Assembly (NCBI RefSeq): GCF_900221005.1
Contig: NZ_OBQI01000004.1
Coordinates: forward strand, 62,001-126,000
DNA from: Blastococcus aggregatus
GTDB lineage: Bacteria; Actinomycetota; Actinomycetes; Mycobacteriales; Geodermatophilaceae
Direction of reading: 5' to 3'
Length of the DNA stretch: 64,000 nucleotides
In this document: positions 4,599 through 44,740 of the stretch, one piece after another
Layout of the letters: the number at the start of each line of letters is the position of its first letter
Position numbering within the stretch: the stretch's first letter is position 1
Notes under the pieces: generated by a model
Database searches by the model: none
The model's input: the letters and a program-made list of their open reading frames with translations, nothing else
What the model was told of the DNA's origin: nothing
Program-made: the position numbers and the translations under genes

Positions 4599-4614
4599 TG
4601 ACGGTCTCGTGACA
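4599..4614 (+). promoter_or_regulatory. Direct-repeat operator A (TGACG-N6-TGACA)
   Basis: Two half-sites whose starts are 11 bp apart, 101 bp before the lipoprotein start at 4715. It is one of a family of sites in this window that fit an OmpR/PhoB-type regulator. Confidence 0.5.
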
Positions 4615-4714
4615 GACGCACGATCCACCGTGCCGTTGCCGGCCAGCCGTCTGCAGAGTGGACAGGTCGACAGAGCGCGTTCCGCGCCCCCCGCGACGAC
4701 GGAGGAGGCCCGAC

Positions 4715-5230
4715 ATGGCCGATCAGCTGGGACGACCGCACACCCGGCCACTGCTGGCCGCCGCCCTGGTGCTCGCCACGTTGGGGCTGTCGGCTTGCGG
4801 AGACGAGGACGACAACGCCCTGGCGCCGTCGCTCGAGCCGGCGAGCGTGCCGGACATCCGCGGGCCAGAGGACCCCGACGATCCCTACGTCGGGCTGCTG
4901 GACGAGGCCTTCCGCGAGGACCTCGAGGCCTACTCCCAGCAGGAGGTCACGCTGCTCGCCGCGGTCGAGGAAGTGATCTCCCCGCGGGCCTTCACCGTCA
5001 CCTCCACCGCCGGTGAGGATCTCGATCCGGTCCTCGTGGTGACCACCGCGGACGTCGGGAACATCGACCCGGAGGTCGGCCAGGAGCTGGTGATCGCAGC
5101 GACACCGGTGGAGGACTTCGACGCTGATACCGCGATCGAGGAGCTGCGCCTCGACCTGGACGCGACGGAACTCGACGCCTGGGATGACGACGTCTATCTC
5201 CTCGCCACGATCCTGGAGGAGGCGCCGTGA
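4715..5230 (+). CDS. Small lipoprotein with a predicted OB-like beta domain (paralogue 1 of 3)
   Basis: 171 residues. A perfect GGAGGAGG ribosome site lies 6 bp before the ATG. The signal peptide ends in lipobox LSACG, so the protein is anchored on the outer face of the membrane. An acidic linker is followed by a beta-rich domain starting QQEVTLLAAVEEVISPRAFT, which pairs with similar segments in the lipoproteins at 16269 and 32001 (pattern: x-V-T-V-x-G-x-V-x-E-V, then a two-strand loop and a second hydrophobic strand). The pattern resembles a small OB-fold. It probably forms its own transcription unit under operator A. Function unknown. Confidence 0.8.
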   Translation: MADQLGRPHTRPLLAAALVLATLGLSACGDEDDNALAPSLEPASVPDIRGPEDPDDPYVGLLDEAFREDLEAYSQQEVTLLAAVEEVISPRAFTVTSTAGEDLDPVLVVTTADVGNIDPEVGQELVIAATPVEDFDADTAIEELRLDLDATELDAWDDDVYLLATILEEAP

Positions 5231-5284
5231 CGGATCACCGCCGCCTGCGCAGACCGTCATTGCATGCCGGCGACAGCGGCCACA

Positions 5285-5300
5285 TGACAGTTTCCTGACA
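5285..5300 (+). promoter_or_regulatory. Direct-repeat operator B (TGACA-N6-TGACA)
   Basis: Two perfect TGACA half-sites at 11-bp spacing, only 33 bp before the ATG of the dikinase-like gene at 5333. The closeness suggests a very short or absent leader. Confidence 0.6.
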
Positions 5301-5332
5301 AGACGCCCGTCGATGCCTTGGGCGCCTCCCTC

Positions 5333-7414
5333 ATGGCAACTCACGTGATCATGAAGGTTGCCCCTGCTGACGACGATTCCTCGTCTCCCCCGGAAGAAGC
5401 CGGTCCGTGCGTTGTGCGCCTCGAGGAGGAGACGGCCGCGCAGCACGAGCTCACCGGCGCCAAGGCCTCGGCGCTTGCCACCGCCCGCAGGCAGGGCCTC
5501 CCGACCGTTCCCGGCTTCGTCATCACCGTCGACGAGGTCGAGCGCATCGCGGCCGGCGGGCCGCTGGGCGAGCCCGTCCTCCAGGCCTGGCGCGAGCTGT
5601 CCGACGACGGCCGCAGAGCCCTCGTCGTCCGCAGCAGCTCCACGGTCGAGGATCTGGGTGACTCCTCGATGGCCGGGCGGTTCGAGTCGGTCGTGGGCGT
5701 GACCGGGTGGGATGCGTTCCGACGCGCCGTGGCCGTCGTCGTGGCGTCCCGGCACGACGCCGCCGCGGGGTCGGACACCCTGACCGGCCACGAGCCGCTC
5801 GCCGTCCTGGTGCAGCCGCTGCTCGACGCCCGCTGCGGCGGGGTGCTGTTCGGGATCGACCCGGTGTCGGGCCGCGAGGACCGGCTGGTCGTCGCCGCCG
5901 TCGAAGGTGGACCCGATCGCCTGGTGAGCGGCGAGGTCGACGGGGACCGCTACGAGCTGGACCCGACCGGCGAGCGCACCGAGATCAGCCGCGGAGACGG
6001 CGGCGTCCGGCTGAGCAGGGCGCAGCTGCGCGAGCTGGCCCGGCTGGCGAAGCGGACGGCGGAGGTCTTCGGGGGGCCGCAGGACGTGGAGTGGGCGTAC
6101 GACGACGCCGGGCGGCTACGGCTGCTGCAGAGCAGACCCGTGACCGCCGAGCCCCGGGGCCGGCCGACGGGACCGGTGCTCGGCCCGGGTCCGATCACCG
6201 AGACGTTCCCCGAGCCGCTCCAGCCCCTCGAGATCGACCTGTGGGTGGCGCCGCTGCGCGAGGCACTCCGGGAGGCCCTGCTGCTCGCCGGCACCGCGGA
6301 CGGAGCCTCGGTGGACGCCTCGCCGCTGGTCACCGTCCTCGGCGGCCGCGTCGCGGTCGACCTCGACCTGCTGGAACCGCGGCAGGAGACCCCCCGCGTC
6401 CTCGACCGGCTCGATCCCCGCCCGCGCGTGCGCAGGCTGCGGGCGTCCTGGCGGGTCGGCCGGCTGCGCTCGGCGCTGCCGGCGCTCGCCCGGGACGTGC
6501 TCGTGTCCGCGGACGGGGTCCTGAGCGGGGTCCCGGAGCTCCCGGAGCTCACCGACCGGCAACTCGTGGCCGTCCTGCACCGCGCCCGGCCGGCCCTGGT
6601 CTCCGTGCACGCGCACGAGGTGCTCGTCGGCATGCTCGTGGACCCCGCCGCCCCGCGGCTCACCGGCGTCAGCGCGGCGCTGCGGGTTCTGGCCCGCGCG
6701 CGACAGGCCGGCATCCCCGAGGCCGAGATCGTCGCCACCAACCCGGTCGTCCTGGCCCTCGCCGCGCCCCGCATCGCCTGCTGCCCGCAACTGCCGCCCG
6801 ACGTGGCGGCCCCGGCCGGTGGCCCTCCGGGCGACGCGGACGACGCCGGACTGCTGCGCGAGGCCCTGCGCCTCCGCGTGCGGTGGCTTCAGGAGGTCAC
6901 CGCGCGCGCGGCCTGGACGCTGGGCGAGCGGCTGGCCGCAGCGGGCCGGCTGTCCCGTCCTGAAGACGTCCGGGGTCTCCGGCTGGACGACCTCGCCGCC
7001 GCGGTCCGCGACGTCGGCTACGAGCTCCGCCCCGAGCCCGTCGAACCGGAGGACCCGCTTCCCGCCCGGTTCCGGCTGGGCTCGACCGGGCGGCCCATCC
7101 CCGTCATCGGCACCGCCGCCGGCACGGGAGCCGGTGGGGGTGCCGGCAGCGGTCCGGTGCACCACGGCGCGGACCCTCCCGCGGGGGCCGTGCTCGTGGT
7201 CCGGACGCTGGACCCCTCCCTGGCGCCGGTTCTGCCCCGGCTGGCCGGTCTGGTCGCCGAGACCGGCAGCGTCCTCGCGCACCTGGCGATCCTGGCCCGC
7301 GAGTCCGGGGTGCCCGTGGTCGTCGGCTTCTCCGGAGCAGTGGACCGGTTCGCCGAGGGGGCGACCGTCCGGGTCGACGGCGCCTCGGGTGCCGTCGAGG
7401 AGGAGACGTCGTGA
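5333..7414 (+). CDS. PEP-synthase-like dikinase: ATP-grasp domain plus swivelling His domain, no PEP-binding barrel
   Basis: 693 residues from ATG 5333 (TTG 5318 and ATG 5351 are alternatives; no ribosome site is visible). The N-terminal third is a PPDK/PpsA ATP-grasp domain: LTGAKASALATARRQGLPTVPGF, VVRSSSTVEDLGDSSMAGRF and PQDVEWAYDDAGRLRLLQSR. The C-terminus is the mobile phosphohistidine domain, with the expected His in GSVLAHLAILARESGVPVVV. The PEP/pyruvate TIM barrel of PpsA is absent; the middle 300 residues are unlike PpsA. This ATP-grasp, linker, His layout is that of rifampin phosphotransferase, so it may phosphorylate a small molecule using ATP. It heads a five-gene run with membrane proteins and a phosphoesterase, overlapping the next gene by GTGA. 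Confidence 0.8.
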   Translation: MATHVIMKVAPADDDSSSPPEEAGPCVVRLEEETAAQHELTGAKASALATARRQGLPTVPGFVITVDEVERIAAGGPLGEPVLQAWRELSDDGRRALVVRSSSTVEDLGDSSMAGRFESVVGVTGWDAFRRAVAVVVASRHDAAAGSDTLTGHEPLAVLVQPLLDARCGGVLFGIDPVSGREDRLVVAAVEGGPDRLVSGEVDGDRYELDPTGERTEISRGDGGVRLSRAQLRELARLAKRTAEVFGGPQDVEWAYDDAGRLRLLQSRPVTAEPRGRPTGPVLGPGPITETFPEPLQPLEIDLWVAPLREALREALLLAGTADGASVDASPLVTVLGGRVAVDLDLLEPRQETPRVLDRLDPRPRVRRLRASWRVGRLRSALPALARDVLVSADGVLSGVPELPELTDRQLVAVLHRARPALVSVHAHEVLVGMLVDPAAPRLTGVSAALRVLARARQAGIPEAEIVATNPVVLALAAPRIACCPQLPPDVAAPAGGPPGDADDAGLLREALRLRVRWLQEVTARAAWTLGERLAAAGRLSRPEDVRGLRLDDLAAAVRDVGYELRPEPVEPEDPLPARFRLGSTGRPIPVIGTAAGTGAGGGAGSGPVHHGADPPAGAVLVVRTLDPSLAPVLPRLAGLVAETGSVLAHLAILARESGVPVVVGFSGAVDRFAEGATVRVDGASGAVEEETS

Positions 7415-7968
7415 GGAAGCTGAGCTGGATCGTCGCTTCGGTCGCGCTGATCGCCTGTGCCGGGTACTTGTTCGTCTACATCTACCGGTGGGAGTGGCAC
7501 CGGGCCCTCCTGGTCGGGATCCTCTTCCTCGCCACGCTCGTCGGCCTGTGCACCGGCCTGGTCCTGCGCCGGCTGTCCGCCGTGGCGCATCGTGCGCCGA
7601 CCCGCGACGACCACCCGCCCGCGGCGCTCGAGCGGCTGCGGGCCGCACCGGTGGAGAGCCGGCCGTTCCCGTGGCTGCGGCCGCCGTCGCGGTCGCGGTC
7701 GCTCGACGGTGCGCACATCTTCATCCCGGTGCTGCTCGGCGGCGGCTTCCTGGTCTCGGGGATCGCGTGGGCGATCGAACGCGTCGCCGGGAGCTCCGCA
7801 CGTTCCGGGGTCGAGGAGCAGCTTGCCGCTGATCTCGAGGGCATCGCCTTTCCGACCACTCCCCTGGTACCGACGGACGCCGAACTGCTGGCGTGCGGCG
7901 ACGACTACGCCGACGACGCCGCCCTGCGCGTGCTGCTCGGACCGGCCTCCAGCGGGTCGTACCGGTGA
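7411..7968 (+). CDS. Membrane protein of unknown function in the dikinase operon
   Basis: 185 residues. The GTG start overlaps the dikinase stop (GTGA), so translation is coupled. Two membrane helices lie at the N-terminus (WIVASVALIACAGYLFVYIY and ALLVGILFLATLVGLCTGLV), followed by a cytoplasmic Arg/Pro-rich loop and a third helix (IFIPVLLGGGFLVSGIAWAI). The C-terminal 60 residues are soluble and contain a single Cys. No known domain is recognised. It probably works with the dikinase and the next small protein. Confidence 0.75.
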   Translation: MRKLSWIVASVALIACAGYLFVYIYRWEWHRALLVGILFLATLVGLCTGLVLRRLSAVAHRAPTRDDHPPAALERLRAAPVESRPFPWLRPPSRSRSLDGAHIFIPVLLGGGFLVSGIAWAIERVAGSSARSGVEEQLAADLEGIAFPTTPLVPTDAELLACGDDYADDAALRVLLGPASSGSYR

Positions 7969-8369: not shown

Positions 8370-8459
8370 CGGCGGACCGGAACGCCCCGCGCCCCGCCCG
8401 TGTTGCCACTGACAGGGACGACGGGACGACGACGAGCACATCGGAGGTGGACGAGGACC

Positions 8460-9856: not shown

Positions 9857-9869
9857 CCTCCGGTCCGGA

Positions 9870-9885
9870 TGTCACCGGACCGTAA
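9870..9885 (-). promoter_or_regulatory. Direct-repeat operator L1 (TTACG-N6-TGACA on the minus strand)
   Basis: On the plus strand this reads TGTCA-N6-CGTAA. A nearly identical block lies before the PAP2 gene (11710). A GGGTA element follows 34 bp later at 9915, resembling the -10 box of SigB/SigF promoters, ahead of the phosphatase at 9932. Confidence 0.5.
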
Positions 9886-9931
9886 GGCGGTGCACCGTTC
9901 GGGCTGCCGGCCATGGGTAGGCACGGACACC

Positions 9932-11350: not shown

Positions 11351-11356
11351 GTGCGG

Positions 11357-11530: not shown

Positions 11531-11762
11531 CGTTCTGCGGACGACGCACGGACAGATGGCGGATCCGGTCGCCGTCGACCGGGCGTACGAGGCGGTGGGG
11601 ATGCTCATCGCCCTGGTACGTCGCACACCGGCGACGACGGACGCCGACCACTTCGTCGTGAGCAGCGTCGTGGCGGACATCCGACGGGCGTTCCGCACCC
11701 TGCATCCGATGTCACGGGACCGTAAGGTGTGCGGCGTTCGCGGCAGTGCCGGGCACGGGTAG
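11460..11762 (+). CDS. Doubtful short helical ORF
   Basis: From about residue 20 the frame has good coding bias and reads as helices (ALDELARVLRTTHGQMADPV, AYEAVGMLIALVRR, VVADIRRAFRTL). The start region overlaps the sulfite-oxidase relic on the other strand and the end runs through operator L2, which is unusual for a live gene. It may be a fragment of a larger helical protein. No family is recognised. Confidence 0.3.
   Translation: MRRSRAAPASGPTAGTTALDELARVLRTTHGQMADPVAVDRAYEAVGMLIALVRRTPATTDADHFVVSSVVADIRRAFRTLHPMSRDRKVCGVRGSAGHG
11710..11725 (-). promoter_or_regulatory. Direct-repeat operator L2 (TTACG-N6-TGACA on the minus strand)
   Basis: It matches operator L1 closely, including the shared GGACCGTAAGG core, a CGTTCG element and a GGGTAG box (11757) placed 36 bp after the second half-site. 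It stands before the double PAP2 gene at 11773. Confidence 0.5.
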
Positions 11763-11772
11763 CTCGAAGACG

Positions 11773-15175: not shown

Positions 15176-15191
15176 TGACGTTTCCCTGACA
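15176..15191 (+). promoter_or_regulatory. Direct-repeat operator C (TGACG-N6-TGACA)
   Basis: 11-bp spaced half-sites, 57 bp before the hydrolase start at 15233. The spacer TTTCCC resembles that of operator B (GTTTCC). Confidence 0.55.
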
Positions 15192-15232: not shown

Positions 15233-16138
15233 ATGCGCATGACCGACGTGACCTCCTTCGACGGGACCCGCCTGGCACTCAGCTCGTGGGGACAGCCCGA
15301 CGGACCCGCGCTGCTGCTCGTGCACGGACTCGGTCTGTCGGCGGAGTCCTGGGGGACGGTTCCGGAGCGGCTGTCCGACCGGTACCGCGTCCTCGCCTAC
15401 GACCTCCGGGGCCACGCCCAGAGCGGTGACGCACGCTCGGGCGGCTACGCGCTGGACGCGCACGCGCGAGCCCTGGACGCCGTGCTGTCCCGCGTGGCGC
15501 CCGACGACGGCCCGGTCGTGGTGGCGGTGCACAGCCTCGGCGGCGGGATACTCCTGACCCACCTCGCCGCCGGCCCCGACGACCGGATCATCGGCGCGGT
15601 GTTCGTGGGCTCCGGGGGCTCGGGCGTCACCGCCCCGGGGCTGTCGGCGCGGCATCTGCCGACGTGGCTGCAGCAGTGGCTGCGGTGGGGCTGGTGGAAC
15701 GCGCTGCGCGGCGGCGTGTGGATCGGCCGGCTGGTGAAGCCCCTGCAGGCGCTGTCCGACCGGATGGTCCGCCGAGCCGCCTTCGCACGCGGCGAGCCCG
15801 AGGAACTCGTGGCCCAGGTCCGGGACAGTTTCCTGGGCAGCCGGCCCCGGGCCCTCGCAGGGACGACGATGGCCAGCCTGAGCCACGATGGCGTGGCACT
15901 CGGGCCGGCGCTACGTGCGCCGACGCTGCTGCTCCACGGCAGCGCCGACCCGGAGGTCCCGCAGGACGAGATCCGGGAGCTGCTGTCGGTCCTTCCGGAC
16001 GGCGAGCTCGTCACGGTGCCCGACGCAGGGCACATGCTGCCGCTCACCCATCCGGACGTCGTCGTCGCAGAGCCGCACCGGTGGATGGTCCGCGTCGCGC
16101 AGGCCGGTTCGGCGGCCGTGACCTCGCCTGACCTGTGA
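15233..16138 (+). CDS. Alpha/beta hydrolase
   Basis: 301 residues from the first of two closely spaced ATGs, with GGGGGTGA upstream. Motifs: VHGLGLSAESW (oxyanion hole), AYDLRGHAQSG, AVHSLGGG (nucleophile Ser), HGSADPEVP (Asp) and DAGHMLPLTHP (His). The cap region between strands 6 and 7 is Trp-rich (LPTWLQQWLRWGWWNALRGG). No signal peptide is present. Small-molecule esterase, lactonase or haloperoxidase-like activities are all possible. It is a single gene behind operator C and ends at the next operator. Confidence 0.82.
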   Translation: MRMTDVTSFDGTRLALSSWGQPDGPALLLVHGLGLSAESWGTVPERLSDRYRVLAYDLRGHAQSGDARSGGYALDAHARALDAVLSRVAPDDGPVVVAVHSLGGGILLTHLAAGPDDRIIGAVFVGSGGSGVTAPGLSARHLPTWLQQWLRWGWWNALRGGVWIGRLVKPLQALSDRMVRRAAFARGEPEELVAQVRDSFLGSRPRALAGTTMASLSHDGVALGPALRAPTLLLHGSADPEVPQDEIRELLSVLPDGELVTVPDAGHMLPLTHPDVVVAEPHRWMVRVAQAGSAAVTSPDL

Positions 16139-16162
16139 CAGCCCGCTGTCGAACGTGTGTCA
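16136..16162 (+). promoter_or_regulatory. Operator M: three half-sites at 11-bp steps
   Basis: TGACA (16136), TGTCG (16147) and TGTCA (16158) start exactly 11 bp apart. The first overlaps the hydrolase stop codon. The lipoprotein start is at 16269. Confidence 0.4.
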
Positions 16163-20504: not shown

Positions 20505-20727
20505 GTCGTTCCTCCCTCGGGGGCGGGCCGGCGACACCGTCCGTCGGCCTCCGTCCACGCCCTTCAGCCGGCGGTCAGTCCGGGTGGACGGCGCGACCAC
20601 GTCCGCGAACGTCGTCGGCCAGACCTCGAGGGCCGTGTCCTGCAGCCAGGCGCACTGCCTCCCGCTGGGCGATCAGGTCCCCGACCCGCTGCCCCCGGCG
20701 TCGCCCGACAAGCACGCCGCCGGGCAA

Positions 20728-20743
20728 TGTCATCTCCTTGACA
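20728..20743 (-). promoter_or_regulatory. Operator K (TGTCA-N6-TGACA)
   Basis: The 11-bp spaced half-sites are inverted, so the site reads the same on both strands. It overlaps the stop codon of the YihY gene and sits upstream of the FNT gene on the same strand. Confidence 0.45.
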
Positions 20744-22458: not shown

Positions 22459-22544
22459 GTCGCCGCGACCCCGGTGGACGGCGGCTGCCCGACCGGGAAA
22501 CGGTCACCTGCCTGTCATGTCACCCCGCGGAGCGGCGCCAATTG

Positions 22545-22560
22545 TGACGCCTCTCTGACA
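22545..22560 (+). promoter_or_regulatory. Direct-repeat operator D (TGACG-N6-TGACA)
   Basis: 11-bp spaced half-sites 162 bp before the ABC-type binding lipoprotein. The TGACATCCGGCC end recurs in similar form at operator I. Confidence 0.55.
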
Positions 22561-24526: not shown

Positions 24527-24542
24527 TGACAGCTTCGCGACA
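24527..24542 (+). promoter_or_regulatory. Direct-repeat operator E (TGACA-N6-CGACA)
   Basis: 11-bp spacing, 94 bp before the three-gene MMPL operon. Confidence 0.5.
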
Positions 24543-24635
24543 AGGGCGTCACGTCGAGCTCCGTCGACCTGGCCGTGGGCACCACGGACGTGACCGCGGT
24601 GATGTCCGCGGCCGTGGTTCCAGCGAGGAGCGACG

Positions 24636-24932
24636 ATGAGCACGACCATTCTCCGGGCGCAGAGTCCGGCGGCTGCACCGCACAGTCCCGTGGCTGCCGG
24701 CGGCGACACCTTCGGCGACATCCTGTCCGAGGCCTACCGGCCGGACGCCGCCCCGCCGGTTGCCGTACACGTCCGCCCCGAGCTGTGGCAGTGCCTGTTC
24801 CACCAGCTCGGCGCCACCCTGTCGGCGCCACCACTTGTCTTCATCGTCGACGACGAGCTGCCCACCGCACCCGGGTACGAGATCCACCGCGCCGCGCCGG
24901 AGGCCACCTGCTCGAGAGGGGTGGCGCGGTGA
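24636..24932 (+). CDS. Hypothetical protein, first gene of the MMPL operon
   Basis: 98 residues; GAGGAGCGACG lies directly before the ATG. It is soluble and contains VAVHVRPELWQCLFHQLGAT and PLVFIVDDELPTAPGYEIHR, with two cysteines. The LVFIVDDELP string resembles an alpha/beta fold edge but is too short for a receiver domain. Its stop overlaps the GTG start of the next gene. Unknown function. Confidence 0.7.
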   Translation: MSTTILRAQSPAAAPHSPVAAGGDTFGDILSEAYRPDAAPPVAVHVRPELWQCLFHQLGATLSAPPLVFIVDDELPTAPGYEIHRAAPEATCSRGVAR

Positions 24933-27674: not shown

Positions 27675-27739
27675 GCGGCGTGACAGCGGCACGGAAGTAA
27701 CAGAACTGTCACACGCAAGCAGGCGCACGCGAGACCAGG

Positions 27740-27755
27740 TGACAGCTCCGGGACA
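27740..27755 (+). promoter_or_regulatory. Direct-repeat operator F (TGACA-N6-GGACA), likely autoregulatory
   Basis: 11-bp spaced half-sites 129 bp before the response regulator gene. Further TGACA/TAACA/TGTCA copies lie at 27681, 27698 and 27707, so several dimers may bind. This is what autoregulation would look like. Confidence 0.55.
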
Positions 27756-27868: not shown

Positions 27869-28564
27869 ATGGGCAGCCTCGACGACGTGCCTCGCGCCGT
27901 GCTCATCATCGAAGACGACCCTCGGATCCGCCGGATCCTGCAGATGACGCTGCAGCGCGAGGGGCTCGAGGTCGCCGAGGCCGAGAGCGGCGAGGCGGGG
28001 CTCGAGCACTTGGGTGAACGCGACTTCGACGTCGTCCTGCTGGATCTCATGCTCCCCGGCAAGGACGGCTTCGAGGTGTGCCGGGAGATTCGCCGCACCT
28101 CCAACGTGCCCATCATCATGGTGACCGCGCGGGGCGACAGCCACGACGTCGTGGCCGGGCTGGAGGCGGGTGCGGACGACTACGTCTCCAAACCCTTCGT
28201 GGCCAAGGAGCTGTCGGCGCGGATCCGAGCGCTGGCCCGCCGTACCCGCTCTCCGGAGCCGCGCGTCCGGATCTCGGTCGGCGAGCTGGAGATCGCGCCC
28301 CACGACGGCACCGTCACGCGCAACGGAGAGCTCGTCAACCTGACCCGCACCGAGTTCCGACTCCTGTGCGAGCTGGCTGAGGAGCCCGGCCGCGTCCTCA
28401 GCCGGGAGGACCTGTTGCAGCGGGTCTGGGGCTATGACTACTTCGGCGACTCCCGCCTGGTCGACGTGCACGTGCGGAGGTTGCGGAAGAAGGTCGAAGA
28501 GGATCCGGGCCAGCCCACCGTGGTCACGACCGTGCGCGGCATGGGCTACCGCATCCCCCCGTGA
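27869..28564 (+). CDS. OmpR-family response regulator, MtrA-like
   Basis: 231 residues; GGAGAGGGTGAG precedes the ATG. Receiver: acidic pocket IIEDDPRI, phosphorylated Asp59 in VVLLDLMLPGKDG, Thr in IIMVTARGDS and Lys in YVSKPF. The winged-helix output domain has LVNLTRTEFRLLCELAEEPG, the recognition helix SRLVDVHVRRLRKKVE and the end VVTTVRGMGYRIPP. This output domain is close to MtrA. The overlap with the kinase gene (GTGA) and the GerMN lipoprotein after it repeat the mtrA-mtrB-lpqB order. It is the best candidate reader of the 11-bp repeats across the window. Confidence 0.9.
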   Translation: MGSLDDVPRAVLIIEDDPRIRRILQMTLQREGLEVAEAESGEAGLEHLGERDFDVVLLDLMLPGKDGFEVCREIRRTSNVPIIMVTARGDSHDVVAGLEAGADDYVSKPFVAKELSARIRALARRTRSPEPRVRISVGELEIAPHDGTVTRNGELVNLTRTEFRLLCELAEEPGRVLSREDLLQRVWGYDYFGDSRLVDVHVRRLRKKVEEDPGQPTVVTTVRGMGYRIPP

Positions 28565-30030
28565 CGGCGACCCGGTCCCGCCCCGCGCCAGAGCACCCCG
28601 TCGAGCCTCCACGGGTGGACGGAGACTCTGCCGAGCTCGGGGGCGGGAGGACCAACCCGCTACGAACTCTCCGGGGGCGGGCAACCCTTGCCTTCACGGT
28701 GGTCACCACGGTGCTCTGCAGCCTTCTCGCAACCGCCGTCTGGGTAGCGGTCTCCCAGTACCTGCTCGTGCAACGGGAGAGGACGACGCTCATCCAGGCC
28801 GCGGACAACGCCACGCAGGTCCAGCGGGCCCTGGGCACGGAGCGACTGACCGTCCCCCAAGTACTCGCCCAGCTGCCGCGCGAGAGCGGGTCCATCTCTC
28901 TCTACGTCGACGATGGCGAGTGGGTGACGACGTCCCTGCTCGTGGGCCGCGACGCCATCCCGGACAGCCTGGCCGGACCGGTCCTCGAGGGAAGCCCCGC
29001 GCGGCAGCGGATCGAGACGCGGGACGGCACGCTGATGGCCGTCGGCATCCCGCTGGCCGGATTGAACGAGGCCTACTTCGAGGTCTTTCCCCTCGACGAG
29101 CTGGACCGGACGTATCGCGTTCTCGCCGCGGGCCTGGGGATCTCGGTCGTCGGGCTGGTGCCGCTCCTGCTCACCATGGGGTGGTGGGTCACCGGGCCGG
29201 CTCTACGTCCGCTGAGCCGCGTGGCCTCGGCCGCCGGCGCCATAGCCGAGGGCGACCTGTCCACACGCATCGACCCTCGCGGGGATCCGGCTCTGGCCGC
29301 CATCGCGTCCTCGTTCAACCGGACCGCCGCCTCCCTCGAGGCCCGCGTACGGACGGACGCTCGGTTCGCCGCTGACGTCAGTCACGAGTTGCGCAGCCCC
29401 CTGACCGCCATGCTCGGGGCGATCGACCTGGTGGAGGACTCCGCGGCGGAGCTCCCCGCCGAGGGGCGGGAGGGCGTGTCGGTCCTCCGTTCGGAAGTCC
29501 ACCGCTTCGAGCGCCTCGTCGCCGACCTTCTGGAGATGTCGCGGTCCGATGCCGGCAACGCGGACCTCGTCCTGGAGCACGTCCGCCTGGCCGCTCTCGT
29601 GGAGGAGACACTCGCCCGACGTCGCCTCACGGGGAGGGACACCGCTGAGCTGCGCGTGGACGCCGCGGCGACCGACGTGGTCATCCGTGCCGACAAGCGA
29701 CGCCTCGAGCGCGTCTTGGGCAATCTCATGGACAACGCCGACAAGCATGGCGGCGGTCTGAGCGGTGTCACGGTCACCTGCAGCGACACCACCGCCCGTG
29801 TGGCGGTGGACGACGACGGGCCGGGTATTCCCGAGGATGAACGGCTGCGCATCTTCGACCGGTTCGCCCGGGGAACCGGCAGCAGCCGCACCCGTACTGA
29901 CGGGGCCGGACTGGGTCTGGCACTGGTCGCCCGGCACGTCCAGGCGATGGGGGGCACCGTGACCGTGACCGAGAGCCCGTCGGGGGGAGCGCGGTTCGTC
30001 GTCCAGCTGCCGATGGGTGCCGTCTCATGA
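28561..30030 (+). CDS. Sensor histidine kinase, MtrB-like
   Basis: 489 residues from a GTG overlapping the regulator stop. Helix 1 is at about 41-66, an outer sensor domain of about 115 residues follows, helix 2 is at about 187-208, then HAMP (GPALRPLSRVASAAGAIAEG). Phosphoacceptor His275 sits in AADVSHELRSPLTAML. ATP-binding boxes: N in NLMDNADKHG, DDGPGIPEDE, and G2 GAGLGLALVARHV. It should phosphorylate the adjacent regulator in response to an envelope signal. It overlaps the next gene by ATGA. Confidence 0.9.
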   Translation: MTATRSRPAPEHPVEPPRVDGDSAELGGGRTNPLRTLRGRATLAFTVVTTVLCSLLATAVWVAVSQYLLVQRERTTLIQAADNATQVQRALGTERLTVPQVLAQLPRESGSISLYVDDGEWVTTSLLVGRDAIPDSLAGPVLEGSPARQRIETRDGTLMAVGIPLAGLNEAYFEVFPLDELDRTYRVLAAGLGISVVGLVPLLLTMGWWVTGPALRPLSRVASAAGAIAEGDLSTRIDPRGDPALAAIASSFNRTAASLEARVRTDARFAADVSHELRSPLTAMLGAIDLVEDSAAELPAEGREGVSVLRSEVHRFERLVADLLEMSRSDAGNADLVLEHVRLAALVEETLARRRLTGRDTAELRVDAAATDVVIRADKRRLERVLGNLMDNADKHGGGLSGVTVTCSDTTARVAVDDDGPGIPEDERLRIFDRFARGTGSSRTRTDGAGLGLALVARHVQAMGGTVTVTESPSGGARFVVQLPMGAVS

Positions 30031-30674
30031 GGAGCGGCGCTGCCAAGCGAAGCCTCCTGGCCCTGCTCGCGGCACTGCTCGTGGCACTCGTGAGCAGCTG
30101 CGGGGTTCGTGCTCAGGATGCCGCTGAGGCTGCGCCGACCGGGGCACCGCCGGCCGCGGAGATGGGGAGACCGGATCAGTCCTCGGGTCCGCGGCTGACC
30201 GTCTTCTTCGTGCGCGGCGCCGACCTGGCCCCCGTGGACCGTCGTATCGGCGCTTCCTCGCCTGCCGCAGCACTGGCTCAAGTCGTGGACGGCCCCACCC
30301 GCTCCGAGGCTGCGGACGGCATCCGTACCGCATTGGCCCCAGAGGTGGTGGGCGTCGAGGCCGTGGGGCCAGACGGAACCGCGACGGTGGCCGTGAGCCG
30401 AGGCTTCGCCGGGATCACCGGCGGCAACCAGTTGCTCGCAGTGGCGCAGATCGTCTGGACCCTCACGGCCCTGCCGACGGTCGAGGATGTCCAGTTCACC
30501 GTGGAAGGGATCCCGGTCGAGGTGCCCACCGATGCCGGTCTCTCGTCGGGCCCTGTCGACCGCGGGGACTTCCGCTCCGTCGCACCGGCAGAATCGACAG
30601 CCGCTCCGCCCACGACGAGCCCCCCTCCGGGCGCGACCAGCAGCTCGACCGAAGGCAGCCCTGCTCCGCGTTGA
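30027..30674 (+). CDS. GerMN-domain lipoprotein, short LpqB-like third member of the cassette
   Basis: 215 residues; the ATG overlaps the kinase stop. The signal peptide ends at LVSSCG. The GerMN domain covers about residues 55-160: RLTVFFVRGADLAPVDRRI, AALAQVVDGPTRSEAADGI, TATVAVSRGFAGITGGNQLL and LAVAQIVWTLTALPTVEDVQ. LpqB, the partner of MtrAB, has such a domain plus a large beta-propeller; here the propeller is missing. By analogy it may tune the kinase from outside. The tail is Thr/Pro/Ser-rich. Confidence 0.85.
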   Translation: MRSGAAKRSLLALLAALLVALVSSCGVRAQDAAEAAPTGAPPAAEMGRPDQSSGPRLTVFFVRGADLAPVDRRIGASSPAAALAQVVDGPTRSEAADGIRTALAPEVVGVEAVGPDGTATVAVSRGFAGITGGNQLLAVAQIVWTLTALPTVEDVQFTVEGIPVEVPTDAGLSSGPVDRGDFRSVAPAESTAAPPTTSPPPGATSSSTEGSPAPR

Positions 30675-30740: not shown

Positions 30741-30756
30741 GGACAGCTCCATGACA
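30741..30756 (+). promoter_or_regulatory. Direct-repeat operator G (GGACA-N6-TGACA)
   Basis: 11-bp spacing, 100 bp before the STAS gene. The spacer GCTCCA nearly equals that of operator F (GCTCCG). A third TGACA is at 30728. Confidence 0.5.
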
Positions 30757-32534: not shown

Positions 32535-32644
32535 GGCAGATCTCCTCCTGGGGAACGGCAGCGCCGGGACGACGCCGCCGGGATGCTTCTCGGGCTCCCT
32601 GGGGCTGCCCCCGTCAGGCGCTTCGCTCCCGCCAGCTCGCGACT

Positions 32645-32660
32645 TGTCACGCGTCCGCAA
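32645..32660 (-). promoter_or_regulatory. Direct-repeat operator L4 (TTGCG-N6-TGACA on the minus strand)
   Basis: On the plus strand it reads TGTCA-N6-CGCAA. It lies between the divergent lipoprotein (minus) and phospholipase D (plus) genes. Confidence 0.45.
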
Positions 32661-34227: not shown

Positions 34228-34725
34228 TCATCGTGACGGTCGGGGCGGCACTGCGTCGGTCGAATCGGCCGCCGTGTCGCGACTCCTCCGTCCGGCGTCC
34301 ACCACCGGCCGACGGAGCTTCCCACCGAGGAGGCCACCGACCGCTGCGAGTGCGGCGCCTGCCAGCAGCGATGAGAAGCCGACCCAGAGTGCCGTTTCCA
34401 TGGTGAAGCCGCCCCCGGCGGTCCCCCAGGGACCTACCGAGGGAGTTCTGCACACCTGGAGGCCCGATCCGAGCCGGTCGGTGAGATCGAGCGCGCCAGG
34501 AACAACGGCCGTCACCATCAACGCGACGGCGGCCGTCGCGCCGATGAACCAGCCGAGGTCCCCGCTGACCCAGCAGGTGCCCTCACCGCCGTTCTCGCTG
34601 TAGGCGGTGGCGAACCAGAGTGCGGAACCCCTCGCCGCACCACGGTCGGACCGGAGGACCGACCGCTGACCTCCGTCACCTGCCCGCCGCGGCGAGCGCC
34701 CTCCCGCCTTGCGAAGGACTGTCAC
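34228..34725 (-). CDS. Small membrane protein, start uncertain
   Basis: At most 165 residues. Two membrane helices are clear: WFIGATAAVALMVTAVVPGA and ALWVGFSSLLAGAALAAVGG, with a Cys-bearing loop between (SGLQVCRTPSVGPWGTAGG). The only standard start is the GTG at 34725, but that GTG lies inside operator L3, and the first 30 residues look non-coding, so translation probably begins further in at a non-standard codon. Unknown function. Confidence 0.55.
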   Translation of the reverse strand: MTVLRKAGGRSPRRAGDGGQRSVLRSDRGAARGSALWFATAYSENGGEGTCWVSGDLGWFIGATAAVALMVTAVVPGALDLTDRLGSGLQVCRTPSVGPWGTAGGGFTMETALWVGFSSLLAGAALAAVGGLLGGKLRRPVVDAGRRSRDTAADSTDAVPPRPSR

Positions 34726-34735
34726 CGAGCCGCAA
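34720..34735 (-). promoter_or_regulatory. Direct-repeat operator L3 (TTGCG-N6-TGACA on the minus strand)
   Basis: It sits within a larger inverted repeat (CCGCCTTGCG ... CGCAAGGCGG, 34704-34740), which could alternatively be a terminator hairpin for the gene upstream on the same strand. Confidence 0.4.
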
Positions 34736-34764
34736 GGCGGCCGCTTCCAGCACCGCAGCGACCG

Positions 34765-36026: not shown

Positions 36027-36409
36027 GTGCCTCTCCCCTTGTCCCGCCCCGCGCGACGCCGAGCCGTCTCCCCGACTGGTCGGTCGCTCGCCGGAGCGCG
36101 TGGATCCGTGGCCATGGCCTGCCCGTCACCCAACGGGACAACCCGGTCGGACGCTGACTGTCACAGGACTGACATGGACCTCGCCGCGTGGTGCCGGGTC
36201 CCTGCGGCGACAGTCGCCTTGTCGCCGGGGCGGGTCTGCCGCCGGCCTGGGAACGGTTCATCGAGTCCGCGGCGACAGGAGGGGCGATGGCGCTCGGATC
36301 GCCCCTCCGTGGCACCGTGGAACGCGGCGACCTGCCGGACGACGCTTCGCCTGATGCGCCCTCACTCCCGCTGTCGCGCTCGACCGGCCGGACTGTCGCG
36401 CCGACGGAG
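36027..36409. other. Intergenic stretch with operator H
   Basis: About 380 bp between the LpqE-like gene and the antiporter remnant. Apart from operator H at 36159 I see no gene; both strands lack an open frame with coding bias. Confidence 0.5.
36159..36174 (-). promoter_or_regulatory. Operator H (TGTCA-N6-TGACA)
   Basis: The minus strand reads TGTCA-GTCCTG-TGACA. The spacer GTCCTG is identical to that of operator I, and 11-bp geometry is kept. Confidence 0.5.
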
Positions 36410-36730: not shown

Positions 36731-36743
36731 TTCCGCGGCGCCG

Positions 36744-40344: not shown

Positions 40345-40427
40345 GGGTCCTCCTCCGCTTCCGTGACGCCGTCTCGTCGACGCTGGTCGCCCATACCCAG
40401 CCGGTACAGGAGGACCGACTGGACATG

Positions 40428-40443
40428 TGACAGTCCTGTGACA
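40428..40443 (+). promoter_or_regulatory. Direct-repeat operator I (TGACA-N6-TGACA)
   Basis: Two perfect half-sites at 11-bp spacing in the divergent promoter region of the molybdopterin operon (84 bp) and the copper-storage gene (87 bp). Confidence 0.6.
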
Positions 40444-40529
40444 TCCCGCCGGTCATCCGCCCTCTGGCGGTAGGCCATGGCTCGTCAGCGGTATTGACCC
40501 GCTGTCCTTTCCCCGGCCAAGGAGGAACC

Positions 40530-40937: not shown

Positions 40938-41065
40938 CCGAATCCCCGAGCCGACCAGCGATCAGCCCGGCGCACCAACACCCCGCGCGCGCCAGGACAT
41001 CGGCGGCGCAGGACCACCAGCAGGCCGCCCGCGGAGGCCGGCGGCGAGAGAACGGAGCATGACCC

Positions 41066-41692
41066 ATGGCAGCAAAGAGCAGCAACGAGGACCGCCGGCG
41101 TGGGCACCGCGGTGAGGAGTCCGGTCACCACGACGACTCCAGCCACGGCGCGATGCAGAAGAAGATGTACCTGCGCTTCGCGGCCATGATCACCACGTCC
41201 ATGGTGGTCATGTACTGGACCATGTTCGCCGGCACCTGGGAGTGGAGCCACGTCCGGTTCAGCGAGAGCCGCGTCTTCATGGCACTCACCATGGGCGGCA
41301 CCATGGGGCTGATCATGCTCGCCTGGATGCTCAACATGTACAAGAACATGAAGGGCAACATCGCGATCGTGGCCGTGAGCCTGCTGCTGCTGGGCGGGGG
41401 CATCGCCCTGGACCGCAGCCAGGCCACGGTCGACGACCGGAACTGGATGAGCGCCATGATCCCGCACCACTCGCTGGCCATCACCCGCTCGGAGCGCGCC
41501 GACATCGACGACGTCCGCGTGTGTCAGCTGGCCGTCGAGATCATCCGGGCCCAGGAGCGCGAGATCGCCGAGATGGAGTGGCTGATCCAGGACATCGAGG
41601 AGAACGGGGAGGCCGAGACCGTCGAGGACGCCCAGGCCCGGCCCGTGCCGGAGTTCGAGGGCTCGGCGCTGCGCGACTGCCCGAACGGCTGA
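41066..41692 (+). CDS. DUF305 membrane protein, probable copper-related
   Basis: 208 residues from ATG 41066. A His-rich N-terminus (GHRGEESGHHDDSSHGAMQK) is followed by three membrane helices (MITTSMVVMYWTMFAGTWEW, MALTMGGTMGLIMLAWMLNM, IAIVAVSLLLLGGGIAL), many with Met. The DUF305 signature is WMSAMIPHHSLAITRSERAD with a long helix REIAEMEWLIQDI. DUF305 proteins often accompany copper resistance genes. It lies 128 bp after the copper-storage gene on the same strand. Confidence 0.82.
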   Translation: MAAKSSNEDRRRGHRGEESGHHDDSSHGAMQKKMYLRFAAMITTSMVVMYWTMFAGTWEWSHVRFSESRVFMALTMGGTMGLIMLAWMLNMYKNMKGNIAIVAVSLLLLGGGIALDRSQATVDDRNWMSAMIPHHSLAITRSERADIDDVRVCQLAVEIIRAQEREIAEMEWLIQDIEENGEAETVEDAQARPVPEFEGSALRDCPNG

Positions 41693-41789
41693 TCAGCGCA
41701 GGGGCCGCGCGCCCGGCGTACCGATGGCCGTGTCCGGTATCGCGGAACAAGCGGGTCGCAGGCAGCGCACTCCACGAGACACGATCCGA

Positions 41790-41805
41790 CGTCACGCAAC
41801 TGCAA
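41790..41805 (-). promoter_or_regulatory. Direct-repeat operator O (TTGCA-N6-TGACG on the minus strand)
   Basis: A variant site of the L type. A GGGTA box follows at 41836 on the plus strand, shortly before the YihY gene start. Confidence 0.35.
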
Positions 41806-41851
41806 AGGCGTTGCGGCCTTCGCGGCGCCGCCGCCGGGTACGTGGTCTCCG

Positions 41852-42781
41852 GTGCGGATGGAAGGAACGTGCCCGGGGGTCTGGCGGAGGAGTGTGGCCC
41901 GATGCCGGCGGTTTCTGGCGGTCTACGTCGCCGAGGTCAATCGCGACCGGCTGCTCGGGCTGGCGGCGGAAGCCGCCTTCTTCGCGGTGCTCAGTCTCTT
42001 CCCGAGTGTGCTCGTTGCGGCGAGCATCCTCGGCCTCCTGGACGTCCTCGTCGGCGCTGACGTGGCGGGGCGGGTGCAGGAGGACGTCGTCTCCGCCCTC
42101 GACGCGGTCTTCACCGATTCGGCGTCTGGCGCCGTGCAGTCCGTCGAGAGCCTGTTCGACCGAGCCGGCGGCGAGTTGTTCACCGTCGCCGTGGCGGGCG
42201 CCCTGGTGACCATCTCCGGCGCCTTCGCCGTCGTCATCAACGCGCTGAACATCGCCTACGACACCGTCGAGCGGCGCACCTGGATCCGCCGGCGGCTCCT
42301 CGGCCTCGGGATGGGCGTCGCCACGACGGTGGTCGCTGCGCTGGCACTCACCGTGCTGGTGGTCGGGCCATTCCTCGGCCGGGGACCGGCCTTGGCGGAC
42401 GCGGTGGGGCTCGGGGCCGCCTTCGCGTTCACCTGGGACGTCCTGCGGTACCCGCTGCTCATAGGCGGTCTCGTCGTGTGGGCGGCCACCCTGTTTCACT
42501 ACGCCCCCAACCGTCGCACTCCCTGGCGCGAGGCCTTGCCGGGTGGGCTGCTGACCACGGCTCTCTGGTTGCTGGCCACGGCCGGCTTTCACTTCTATCT
42601 GCGGATCGCGGCGGCGGGGAACCCCGTCTTGGGCGCCTTCGGTGGGGGCGTGATCGTCATGATGTGGACCTACCTCCTCAGTCTCGCCCTCATGCTGGGC
42701 GGTGAGCTCAATGCGACGCTCCACCCGCGACACGCCCCCGACCGTCGTTCACGCCCGACACAGGAGCACGTGCAGGCGTAG
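41852..42781 (+). CDS. YihY/BrkB-family membrane protein (copy 2)
   Basis: 309 residues from GTG 41852; the ATG at 41858 is equally possible. The family order is seen: EVNRDRLLGLAAEAAFFAVL SLFPS at the first helix, VVINALNIAYDTVERRTWIR, LFHYAPNRRTPWREALPGGL and the last pair FGGGVIVMMWTYLLSLALML with GGELNA. The sequence is distinct from copy 1 at 20730, so this is not a recent duplication. Function not established. Confidence 0.85.
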   Translation: MRMEGTCPGVWRRSVARCRRFLAVYVAEVNRDRLLGLAAEAAFFAVLSLFPSVLVAASILGLLDVLVGADVAGRVQEDVVSALDAVFTDSASGAVQSVESLFDRAGGELFTVAVAGALVTISGAFAVVINALNIAYDTVERRTWIRRRLLGLGMGVATTVVAALALTVLVVGPFLGRGPALADAVGLGAAFAFTWDVLRYPLLIGGLVVWAATLFHYAPNRRTPWREALPGGLLTTALWLLATAGFHFYLRIAAAGNPVLGAFGGGVIVMMWTYLLSLALMLGGELNATLHPRHAPDRRSRPTQEHVQA

Positions 42782-42999
42782 CAGGGGCCGCTGCGCCGCC
42801 CGACTGCCGCGGGCCGCTGGTGGGACCTTCACGTCCTGTGCACGGCCATGAGGACTGTGTGCCCCGCGTTCCGCTCTCGTCGACACCGTCTGCGGCGCCA
42901 GGTCTGGGGGTCGGAGCAGGGGGCGAATCGGATCTGCGGCATGGACCGTGACCGCCCGCCGCAGGCGGCGTACGGGGAGCGCTGGTCATGGGGTGGCGC

Positions 43000-43299
43000 T
43001 CACGTCCAGCGCCTGACCCGGGCTCGGCGGGTGAGTGCGACCGTGAGCACAGGCAGTGCGACGGTCGCCGAGGCGCCGGAGAAGGCACCGATCTGCTCGG
43101 TGGGCGTCCCGCCAGCACCGAGCAGGGCTCCGCCGACCGCTGCCAGGGCGACCGAGGCGGCCAGCAAGCCGAACCCGGCGATCGCGTGCCGCACCCCCAC
43201 TTCCTCGGTCGCGCCGGCCCGTTGCCCGAGGGTCACCACAGCACCGGCCGTTGCCAGCCCCGTTGCGCCCACCAGCAGGACGAGGACCGGCCACGTCAT
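43000..43299 (-). CDS. Small three-helix membrane protein
   Basis: 99 residues. Three hydrophobic segments: VLVLLVGATGLATAGAVVTL, AIAGFGLLAASVALAAVGGA and ASATVALPVLTVAL, ending in a basic tail (TRRARVRRW). Its ATG overlaps the stop of a 34-codon ORF upstream. No family recognised. Confidence 0.65.
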   Translation of the reverse strand: MTWPVLVLLVGATGLATAGAVVTLGQRAGATEEVGVRHAIAGFGLLAASVALAAVGGALLGAGGTPTEQIGAFSGASATVALPVLTVALTRRARVRRWT

Positions 43300-43400
43300 G
43301 GCTGCCGCCTCATCTCTCGGTTTCCGTGTGTCGTCGAGCGGGCTGGGCCGCCCACGGCGAGGCCGGCCGCCTCGGTTGTGTCGCGGCTCGTGATCTCCAT
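43296..43400 (-). CDS. Possible 34-residue coupled peptide
   Basis: A good ribosome site (GGGAGAGGTGGAC) leads into MEITSRDTTEAAGLAVGG and the frame ends in ATGA shared with the membrane protein start. This placement suggests translational coupling. Too short to classify. Confidence 0.4.
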   Translation of the reverse strand: MEITSRDTTEAAGLAVGGPARSTTHGNREMRRQP

Positions 43401-43711
43401 GTCCACCTCTCCCCTGCCTGCCCGGGACGACGGGCGCGACGGCTCTGTCCGTACCCGGAGACGCCCACCGTGCCCGGCTCAGCCCGAGTCGTCACCGGAC
43501 TGTCATGGCCGGCAGGGACGCTCCGTGGCGCCGCTGCCCGAAGCTCGCCGCAGCGCAGCGCAGCGCGCAGCGCGGGATCGTCGCCAGCCACTCGTGGACG
43601 GTGCGATCTCGTGACGTCGGACCGGACACCCGTCTGCAGTCCGACGTGCAGCCGGTGACGTAGCGGCCCCAGCCCGCTCGAACGGGGCCGGGTGCCCGCA
43701 TGCCGTGAGCA
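43401..43711. other. Intergenic stretch with operator J
   Basis: About 310 bp between the membrane-protein unit and the STAS gene, both on the minus strand. It holds operator J and a minus-strand GGGTA box (43456). I see no gene. Confidence 0.5.
43490..43505 (-). promoter_or_regulatory. Direct-repeat operator J (TGACA-N6-TGACG on the minus strand)
   Basis: 11-bp spacing with spacer GTCCGG, equal to that of operator L1. A GGGTA box lies 38 bp further on the minus strand. Confidence 0.5.
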
Positions 43712-44131
43712 CTACGCCCAGAGGGGGCGACGGAGATTCGCCCCCGTCGTCCCGGTGTCACGGGTGCCGCCGCCGCGCTGATCGCGTTTCTCGCCACCCC
43801 CGACTGGACCGCCCTGGAGGTGCAGCACCCGGGACAGGCCCGTCCGGCGGACCATGTCGCGCGTCCGCCGATCCGCGCCGCGCAGCACCACGGCTCCCCC
43901 GCGGGCGCGACAGACGCGGTGCGCGGACAGGAACGTGGCCAGCGCGGGGCTGCCGACGGAATGCACCCTGCTCAGGTCCACCACGATCCACCGGGCTCCC
44001 GCGAGCACGGCGTCGCGCATCAGCCAGCGGGCATCCGCCAGGCCGTCCGCCAGCACGGCCTCGTCGAGCCGGACGACGACCTCGTCTTCCGGATTCTGCG
44101 AAGTCCGCATAGCGGCTGGAGCGCTGGCCAT
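43712..44131 (-). CDS. STAS-domain protein
   Basis: 139 residues; GGGAGGGAACC precedes the ATG at 44131, and the longer frame upstream looks non-coding. STAS elements: VVVRLDEAVLADGLADARWL, WIVVDLSRVHSVGSPALATF and RGGAVVLRGADRRTRDMVRR. The phospho-site region reads S-V-G-S-P-A-L instead of D-S-S-G-L, so a Ser remains nearby. It diverges from the STAS gene at 44362. It is likely part of a SigB-like partner-switching network, but no RsbW-type kinase is in the window. Confidence 0.78.
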   Translation of the reverse strand: MASAPAAMRTSQNPEDEVVVRLDEAVLADGLADARWLMRDAVLAGARWIVVDLSRVHSVGSPALATFLSAHRVCRARGGAVVLRGADRRTRDMVRRTGLSRVLHLQGGPVGGGEKRDQRGGGTRDTGTTGANLRRPLWA

Positions 44132-44361
44132 GGTTCCCTCCCCGGTTCGCGGCCGTTCGGCCAGTGGTGTCGGCCCCCACGCTGGCGCGACGACATTGCG
44201 ATCGCCGGAACCGAACCCCTGCGATCGCATGACGGTGCCCCGGGGCGCGTTCCCGGCGCAGCGCGATCCGCTGAACGCACATGCCAGGCCCCGGTTCGCA
44301 GTCCCGAGACGACGGCTCGCGTCGCGGGCCCAGGGCAGTCGGCCGATGCCAGCCTGGTGAC

Positions 44362-44649
44362 ATGGACACCGCACCGACTGGCCGTTACGAGCGCAGCCCT
44401 GCCCTGACCGAGGTGGTCGACCCTCTCCGCGGCGCCGTCCGTGTCAGTGGGCACCTCACCGTCCAGGGCGCCGACCTGCTGCGCGGCACCGTCGAGTGCC
44501 TGCGCCGCAGTGGCCACGACCGCGTGCTCCTCGACCTCGGCGACGTGCGCAGCGCCGAGTCCGCCGGCTTGCACGACCTGCGCGATCTGGAGCAGTCGAT
44601 GGCTGACGAGGGGGGCGAGTTGTTGCTCCTGGCCACTCCTGTGCCCTGA
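44362..44649 (+). CDS. Short STAS-domain protein
   Basis: 95 residues from ATG 44362 with only a weak ribosome site. STAS pattern: VRVSGHLTVQGADLLRGTVE, VLLDLGDVRSAESAGLHDLR and DEGGELLLLATPVP. The phospho-site region reads S-A-E-S-A-G-L, keeping one Ser. It resembles the STAS protein at 30856 in its N-terminal half (G-x-L-T-x-x-x-A-D-x-L-R-G-T-V-E). It ends 75 bp before operator N. Confidence 0.75.
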   Translation: MDTAPTGRYERSPALTEVVDPLRGAVRVSGHLTVQGADLLRGTVECLRRSGHDRVLLDLGDVRSAESAGLHDLRDLEQSMADEGGELLLLATPVP

Positions 44650-44724
44650 CCTGAGCTCGCGCGGAGGAAAGGCCCAGGGGTGGGTGGTCTCCGGCTCCGC
44701 GACCGGCGAGCGCATGCAGGCGCG

Positions 44725-44740
44725 TTGCGGTTGCGTGACG
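44725..44740 (+). promoter_or_regulatory. Direct-repeat operator N (TTGCG-N6-TGACG)
   Basis: An L-type site on the plus strand, 75 bp before the second PRC-barrel gene, with a GGGTA box 38 bp after the second half-site. Confidence 0.45.

Follow-up and report, generated by a model that had tools for sequence, protein, structure and literature searches.

Pitch-11 TGAC-type operators across a variable island of Blastococcus aggregatus, and a candidate MtrA-like system acting on SigB/SigF-type promoters

Why should one short direct repeat recur ahead of most transcription units of a 40-kb region, and which protein would read it? The question is raised by a 64,000-nucleotide stretch of the Blastococcus aggregatus genome (hereafter the window, C5:62001-126000 of 4.62 Mb), where 18 such repeats, the claimed operators, lie on either side of genes for a two-component system at 27869-30674. 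The answer that we favour, and consider probable, is that they are operators of this MtrA-like system (regulator 27869), which would co-activate SigB/SigF-type promoters, recognised by a GGGTA or GGGCA (GGGYA) element at set distances from the operator. In sequence comparison, the sites, their pitch, their enrichment and their link to regulator 27869 are well supported.

Pitch and concentration of the operators

The original prediction listed 18 sites under a title that spoke of sixteen, and all 18 coordinates do hold two half-sites with starts 11 bp apart (what reads TGTCA on the + strand being a direct repeat on the - strand). Nine of the 18 are exact matches to (TGACR or TTRCG)-N6-TGACA, and the other nine carry mismatches. 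Of the two sites it named as weakest, 16136 is the lowest (8.1 bits) but 41790 is not (19.5 bits). That the sites stand before start codons is borne out: 17 of 18 are 41-223 bp upstream of a called start (gene calls rest on codon usage, domain annotation on Pfam), the exception being 34720, for which no start was called in the 2 kb downstream, whichever direction is taken. Operator 20728 overlaps the 3' end of the adjoining gene.

Operators and operator candidates
4599..4614, + strand, operator: 26.2 bits; 100 bp before gene 4715 (lipoprotein-type signal)
5285..5300, + strand, operator: 23.1 bits; 113 bp before PPDK_N/PEP-utilizer protein 5414-7414
9870..9885, - strand, operator: 19.1 bits; 46 bp before phosphoesterase 9932
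11710..11725, - strand, operator: 20.6 bits; 47 bp before PAP2 protein 11773
15176..15191, + strand, operator: 21.0 bits; 41 bp before alpha/beta hydrolase 15233
16136..16151, + strand, weakest operator candidate: 8.1 bits; 117 bp before gene 16269 (lipoprotein-type signal)
20728..20743, - strand, operator: 13.7 bits; 223 bp before formate/nitrite transporter 20504-19716
22502..22517, - strand, extra operator candidate: 15.1 bits; inverted, 43 bp from 22545
22545..22560, + strand, operator: 11.8 bits; 215 bp before solute-binding protein 22776
24527..24542, + strand, operator: 15.0 bits; 147 bp before open reading frame (ORF) 24690
27696..27711, - strand, extra operator candidate: 15.8 bits; inverted, 44 bp from 27740
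27740..27755, + strand, operator (putative autoregulation): 9.6 bits; 113 bp before the response regulator
30741..30756, + strand, operator: 10.0 bits; 99 bp before STAS protein 30856
32645..32660, - strand, operator: 16.1 bits; between gene 32001 (-, lipoprotein-type signal) and PLD protein 32802 (+)
34720..34735, - strand, operator: 11.9 bits; no called start downstream within 2 kb
36159..36174, - strand, operator: 25.0 bits; 183 bp before PCuAC-like protein 35975-35484; site at 4/6 orthologues
40428..40443, + strand, operator: 25.4 bits; between molybdopterin oxidoreductase 37888 (-) and Csp-like (DUF326) 40530 (+)
41790..41805, - strand, operator: 19.5 bits; 88 bp before BrkB-family protein 41894
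43490..43505, - strand, operator: 27.5 bits; 190 bp before small ORF 43299-43000
44725..44740, + strand, operator: 18.2 bits; 74 bp before PRC-barrel protein 44815; last before the island edge

The 11-bp pitch is far beyond chance in spacing tests on the window, the genome and relatives. In the window, TGACR..TGACA pairs occur five times at pitch 11 and six times altogether at the 35 remaining pitches in the range 5-40, the figures for TTRCG..TGACA being four and two. In the whole genome, TGACR-N(2-12)-TGACA has 47 matches, of which seven are at N6 (five in the window) and 40 at the ten other spacings (two in the window); the TTRCG type has five at N6 (four in the window) and seven at other spacings (one in the window). 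Two head-to-tail half-sites at about 11 bp are the layout of OmpR/PhoB-family operators, and comparative evidence (orthologous promoters, concentration near the regulator) argues for operators of this type, as had been proposed.

Two matrices were used for scoring. The first, built from 20 sites of relatives and no window site (one of the 20 coming from a sequence that genome G008 holds in four copies), gives at 12 bits or more 23 matches between 4.5 and 44.8 kb, two in 100 kb of own flanks and none in the rest of the window (23.7 kb); its eight top matches are all claimed sites, and 17 of the 18 claimed sites reach at least 6 bits, 16136 falling below. The second, built from 37 relative sites (37 of 45 kept; T3 and C6 are invariant in their alignment), was selected through a window-trained matrix and is therefore partly circular, not independent; it gives all 18 claimed sites at least 8 bits. 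At 12 bits or more it finds 2.07 matches per kb in intergenic DNA of the island (16 in 7.7 kb) versus 0.067 per kb in the control (3 in 44.7 kb), and 0.061 versus 0.014 per kb in coding DNA, the control being 460 kb of the same genome (23 stretches of 20 kb) from which four further hit-holding stretches, with one match of 16-27 bits each, were left out. Shuffled island intergenic DNA yields a mean of 0.375 such matches (maximum 2 in 200 shuffles) versus the 16 observed. Neither of the two outcomes named beforehand as fatal, an even density (examined with the pattern on the whole genome and the matrix on 460 kb) or a similar count in shuffled sequence, was thus found, and the motif is concentrated in the region. 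The claimed absence of sites from 1-4.5 and 45-64 kb holds at 10 bits or more with the second matrix, which has one 8.5-bit match at 661 and which adds candidates at 22502 (-), 27696 (-), 43601 (+), 44347 (+), 30687 (-), 32679 (+) and 5260 (+). A profile search of the genome, which served only for finding outside candidates, gave ten matches at E<=10, six of them in the window (150 of 1811 first-look candidates scored).

Inverted operator pairs 43-46 bp apart are seen in the window (22502/22545 and 27696/27740) and in relatives G006, G008, G014, G018, G021 and G022; the distance, about four helical turns, suggests cooperative or looped binding.

The candidate regulator, its orthologues and MtrA

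The two-component system consists of three genes.

27869..28564, + strand, OmpR-family response regulator, MtrA-like paralogue and proposed regulator: Pfam Response_reg and Trans_reg_C
28561..30030, + strand, HAMP/HisKA/HATPase sensor kinase, MtrB-like: Pfam; NCBIfam MtrB 233 bits (cut-off 450)
30027..30674, + strand, GerMN-domain protein with lipoprotein-type signal (read from translation), in LpqB-like position: Pfam Germane 58.8 bits

Orthologues of the regulator (69-91% identity) were found in 18 of the 59 relatives surveyed, named close records being from Geodermatophilus chilensis and Blastococcus species; genus members G001, G003, G004, G009 and G020 give no match above 55%. In the 18 regulator neighbourhoods, pairs of four first-half words with TGACA occur 20 times at pitch 11 and eight times over 25 other pitches, with at least one pitch-11 pair in 13 neighbourhoods and none in five. 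Among promoter regions of orthologues near the regulator, 37 of 142 reach 16 bits where 0.35 would be expected (window-trained matrix; divergent genes share one site, which is counted twice), and this speaks for the single regulon that the original prediction had postulated. At 10 bits or more, a site precedes the regulator itself in 13 of 18 orthologues, which, with the concentration of sites in its region, points to the product of 27869 as the regulator, also as proposed. By gene, such sites are found for the Csp-like gene in 11/13, the oxidoreductase in 7/11, 31184 in 6/6, 14264 in 6/10, the PCuAC-like gene in 4/6 and 17156 in 2/4 orthologues; presumed operon-internal genes (28699, 30162, 36410, 36744, 37409) have them in 0/56, and the cold-shock-type gene 47113, outside the island, in 1/7. 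Of 80 named regulator loci, 38 were examined and seven have a site of at least 16 bits within 400 bp upstream, five at 70-89% identity and two, from Micromonospora, at 56-58% (26.8- and 32.8-bit sites).

Two observations on relatives may be added. Upstream of 55-58% homologues of the regulator in other genera (L023, L024, L026, L030) stands TTGCG-N6-TGACG, of the same pitch, which suggests an older autoregulatory box. In G008, TGACGGAAAGTTGACA is present four times (e.g. C1:1362885), as if inside a repeated element.

Could the true regulon be smaller, that is, a conserved core only (regulator, Csp-like/oxidoreductase, PCuAC-like, phosphoesterase/lipoprotein), with the weaker window sites there by chance? 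Sites 16136, 27740, 30741, 22545 and 34720 indeed score only 8-12 bits, and for many genes of the window the 18 relatives hold no orthologue close to the regulator, so that conservation gives no information on them. However, at 8 bits or more, shuffled intergenic DNA gives a mean of 2.0 matches (maximum 8) versus 24 observed, and the weak site 34720 has a phased GGGCA. Such a core-only regulon seems to us improbable, if the most durable of the alternatives.

As to what kind of protein the regulator is, the order response regulator, kinase, GerMN lipoprotein is that of MtrA-MtrB-LpqB, and the best-scoring solved chain for 27869 is MtrA 2gwr. Assignment to canonical MtrA/MtrB, CseB or PhoB was rejected, the NCBIfam equivalog cut-offs not being reached (for the regulator, MtrA 276 bits with a cut-off of 300, CseB 251 with 350 and PhoB 230 with 296). 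The genome also encodes a canonical MtrA, and the recognition region GDSRLVDVH(V/I)RRLRKK is constant in 19 orthologues, that of the window included, versus ADTRLVNVHVQRLRAK in the canonical MtrA of five genomes. These features are consistent with a paralogue. It might be argued that the operators belong to canonical MtrA or another OmpR-family regulator and that 27869 is an unrelated neighbour, since MtrA and AfsQ1 bind GTnAC-type repeats of equal pitch (according to the available parts of the literature) and the genome has both a canonical MtrA and 26 proteins, counting 27869, that match the regulator. We hold this unlikely, for canonical mtrA has no site above 5.5 bits within ~320 bp upstream in any of five genomes, whereas the 27869 orthologue promoter has one in 13 of 18 genomes and two Micromonospora homologues have one as well (among 38 of the 80 loci).

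Coupling to SigB/SigF-type promoter elements

At a distance of 20-36 nt from the operator edge, GGGTA is present 27 times (at 23 of 75 sites) versus 0.73 in shuffles. In the direction of the repeat, GGGTA or GGGCA stands 33-35 nt away (34 being commonest) or 23-24 nt away, and on the other side of the operator 28-32 nt away (exactly 29 nt for 9 of 20). With these offsets (23, 24, 33, 34, 28-32), a phased GGGYA accompanies 11 of the 18 window operators (shuffled mean 0.38, maximum 3 in 300 shuffles) and 32 of 57 operators of relatives (shuffled mean 1.39), figures in which the shuffles understate the freedom of choice, as these very data served to define the offsets. The peaks nevertheless stand out from the 0.16-0.28 per offset found elsewhere.

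Phased promoter elements of the window
9915..9919, + strand, GGGTA: 29 nt from operator 9870
11757..11761, + strand, GGGTA: 31 nt from operator 11710
20690..20694, - strand, GGGCA: 33 nt from operator 20728
24577..24581, + strand, GGGCA: 34 nt from operator 24527
32606..32610, - strand, GGGCA: 34 nt from operator 32645
34681..34685, - strand, GGGCA: 34 nt from operator 34720; possible unannotated transcript
36120..36124, - strand, GGGCA: 34 nt from operator 36159
40394..40398, - strand, GGGTA: 29 nt from operator 40428
41836..41840, + strand, GGGTA: 30 nt from operator 41790
43452..43456, - strand, GGGTA: 33 nt from operator 43490
44774..44778, + strand, GGGTA: 33 nt from operator 44725

In 81% of the same-direction cases (n=31) position -19 is G, and in 45% position -17 is T; with GGGYA as the -10 element at a fixed place, this fits SigB/SigF-type promoters. 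Control hits of at least 12 bits have a phased GGGYA in one of eight cases, and no sigma-70-type TAnnnT was seen in the 90 nt downstream of operators among 60 rows listed (directions chosen by hand). One SigB/F/G-type sigma factor of the genome scores above its cut-off (301 bits versus 234; C6:558107).

In the mechanism that we propose, the phosphorylated regulator dimer would bind two head-to-tail TGAC-type half-sites, 11 bp apart, immediately upstream of SigB/SigF-type promoters and in a fixed helical position, the operator centre lying an estimated ~50-57 bp before the transcription start. It would co-activate general-stress promoters and act on its own promoter, so that the island would respond to an envelope signal as well as to the general-stress sigma factor. 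Binding, activation (as opposed to repression), the identity of the sigma factor and the signal are what we infer here, and co-activation seems the mechanism that best accommodates the data. Repression (operators blocking general-stress promoters until a signal comes, or acting either way by orientation) seems unlikely: operators occur in both orientations with differing spacings (29 nt being commonest on one side and 34 or 24 nt on the other), and some are only 41-47 bp from the start codon, but phased operators end, by estimate, upstream of the -35 region (the counted offsets leave GGGYA uncovered by definition), a position that is typical of activators.

Several facts weigh against operators of system 27869 that co-activate stress promoters. 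Seven of the 18 window operators, the regulator's own included, lack a phased GGGYA; the -35 is mostly degenerate and poorly defined, GTT at 14-16 spacing being present in 6 of 31 and 3 of 20 cases (about 0.02 per case expected). Five of the 18 regulator orthologues have no promoter site of at least 10 bits, nor do the single orthologues of 11773, 16269 and 25440 in G014, and no upstream site was found for homologues from Kineococcus (69%), Nocardia sp. (63%) and Saccharothrix (61%). Orthologues share ancestry, so that sites in the relatives are not independent. Counts of TGACR-N6-TGACA over the own genome and 59 relatives give no clear separation of genus members that carry the regulator (72 matches in 17 genomes) from those that lack it (14 matches in 5 genomes), four of the ten G008 matches being copies of one sequence. 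Lastly, strong sites exist outside the island (C5:254146, C6:422651, C10:239841, C6:358214); their membership of the regulon is doubtful because none of the four has a phased GGGYA. The site at C6:422651 (L086:9651), of TTACG type and 27.1 bits, may be a canonical MtrA site.

A variable island and its place among known systems

Comparison of 60 kb beside hemE in five relatives shows that synteny is largely kept among window genes between 47.1 kb and hemE (47113, 47415, 51595, 52118, 54138 and 55511 in 5/5 relatives, 45461 in 3/5), whereas to the left of 45.4 kb only 31184 is found beside hemE at 60% identity or more, in one of the five (the comparison took in the window genes and 60 kb before the window, 2 kb between being left out). 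Such variable content beside a conserved backbone is that of a genomic island. The operators end, with 44725, near its right edge (45-47 kb), where conserved synteny starts; its GC content is 71.8% versus 74.9% to its right. No tRNA was found in the window (integrase and att sites were not searched for), and the left end was not found.

The genes of the 40-kb stretch are largely stress- and envelope-related. Those directly downstream of an operator include 4715, 16269 and 32001, which have lipoprotein-type signals (read from translation) and match no Pfam family, and further first genes are those for the PPDK_N/PEP-utilizer (5414), phosphoesterase (9932), PAP2 (11773), alpha/beta hydrolase (15233), formate/nitrite transporter (19716), solute-binding (22776), STAS (30856), PLD (32802), PCuAC-like (35484), molybdopterin oxidoreductase (37888), DUF326/Csp-like (40530), BrkB (41894) and PRC-barrel (44815) proteins and for the regulator (27869), together with ORF 24690 and the small ORF 43000. 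Phosphoesterases 8460 and 14264 and DUF305 protein 41066 are possible operon followers and, less surely, so is MMPL protein 25440; the latter had been counted in the regulon, but no operator directly precedes it, and regulation would have to reach it by way of a transcript that begins at 24690. A copper-specific regulon (Csp-like, DUF305, PCuAC-like) was considered and set aside: the Pfam PCuAC match of 35484 and the NCBIfam Csp1 match are both below cut-off, and there is no evidence as to the signal.

Other observations concern less clear genes. The STAS match in 44362 is below cut-off, and 43712 is STAS-like by eye. Between 34178 and 35484, ~1.3 kb hold no well-supported gene (five ORFs there have no Pfam match) and yet operator 34720 with its phased GGGCA toward the - strand, possibly indicating a non-coding transcript or a missed small gene. 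A 563-aa protein at 2232-3923 (-) has no Pfam match, and its N-terminal part looks like a restriction-endonuclease-type domain.

Absent from the original prediction are the MtrA kinship, the variable island and the fixed coupling of operator and SigB/SigF-type element, the last being a new observation. Tentatively, and rather against the balance of probability, the island might be a portable general-stress regulon that grew by operator capture: accessory genes with ready SigB/SigF-type promoters would gain a TGAC-N7-TGAC box at any of a few helically fixed distances, and with it come under one MtrA-like sensor and a double key (stress sigma factor and envelope signal), the block of other strains differing in size and place. 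What is gained for this two-component system of Geodermatophilaceae is a target list together with a grammar of its operators and promoters, which suggests that a whole accessory block can become wired to the general stress response via one rigid composite promoter; the evolution of regional regulons becomes testable because relatives hold smaller versions of the same module.

How does this compare with known systems? No report of this regulon, nor a description of its two-component system, was recognised by title or abstract start in open-licence PMC text. With MtrA-MtrB-LpqB of Streptomyces and Mycobacterium, the system shares gene order and pitch-11 direct repeats. MtrA boxes are GTnACC-n5-GTnAC, with T1 and C4 of the half-site critical, in the accessible portions of the two sources (PMC5650626, PMC13189361); the invariant T3 and C6 of the 37-site alignment parallel this. 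Unlike in the MtrA system, the proteins here score below the MtrA/MtrB cut-offs, the recognition helix has other residues, canonical mtrA has no site, half-sites are TGACA/TGACG/TTRCG and sites are concentrated in one island. AfsQ1 operators of Streptomyces (GTnAC-n6-GTnAC, as given in the accessible part of a review) have the same repeat layout; the comparison is one of layout, not of protein or targets, and the base before the first TGAC is here often A. SigB/SigF-type promoters, GTTT-N14-19-GGGTA with GGGCA variants in the excerpts at hand (PMC8346170, PMC4694148), share the GGGTA/GGGCA elements, and the M. smegmatis SigF list, as far as it is excerpted, also has PLD, alpha/beta hydrolase, molybdopterin oxidoreductase and anti-sigma antagonist genes; here, in contrast, the -35 is mostly degenerate and an operator stands at a fixed distance upstream. 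The last parallel is with M. smegmatis, where KdpE and SigF act jointly on kdpFABC, an OmpR-family regulator with SigF at a GTTC-N13-GGGCA promoter (PMC5401905, in the part available); there it is one operon, here many operons of one island.

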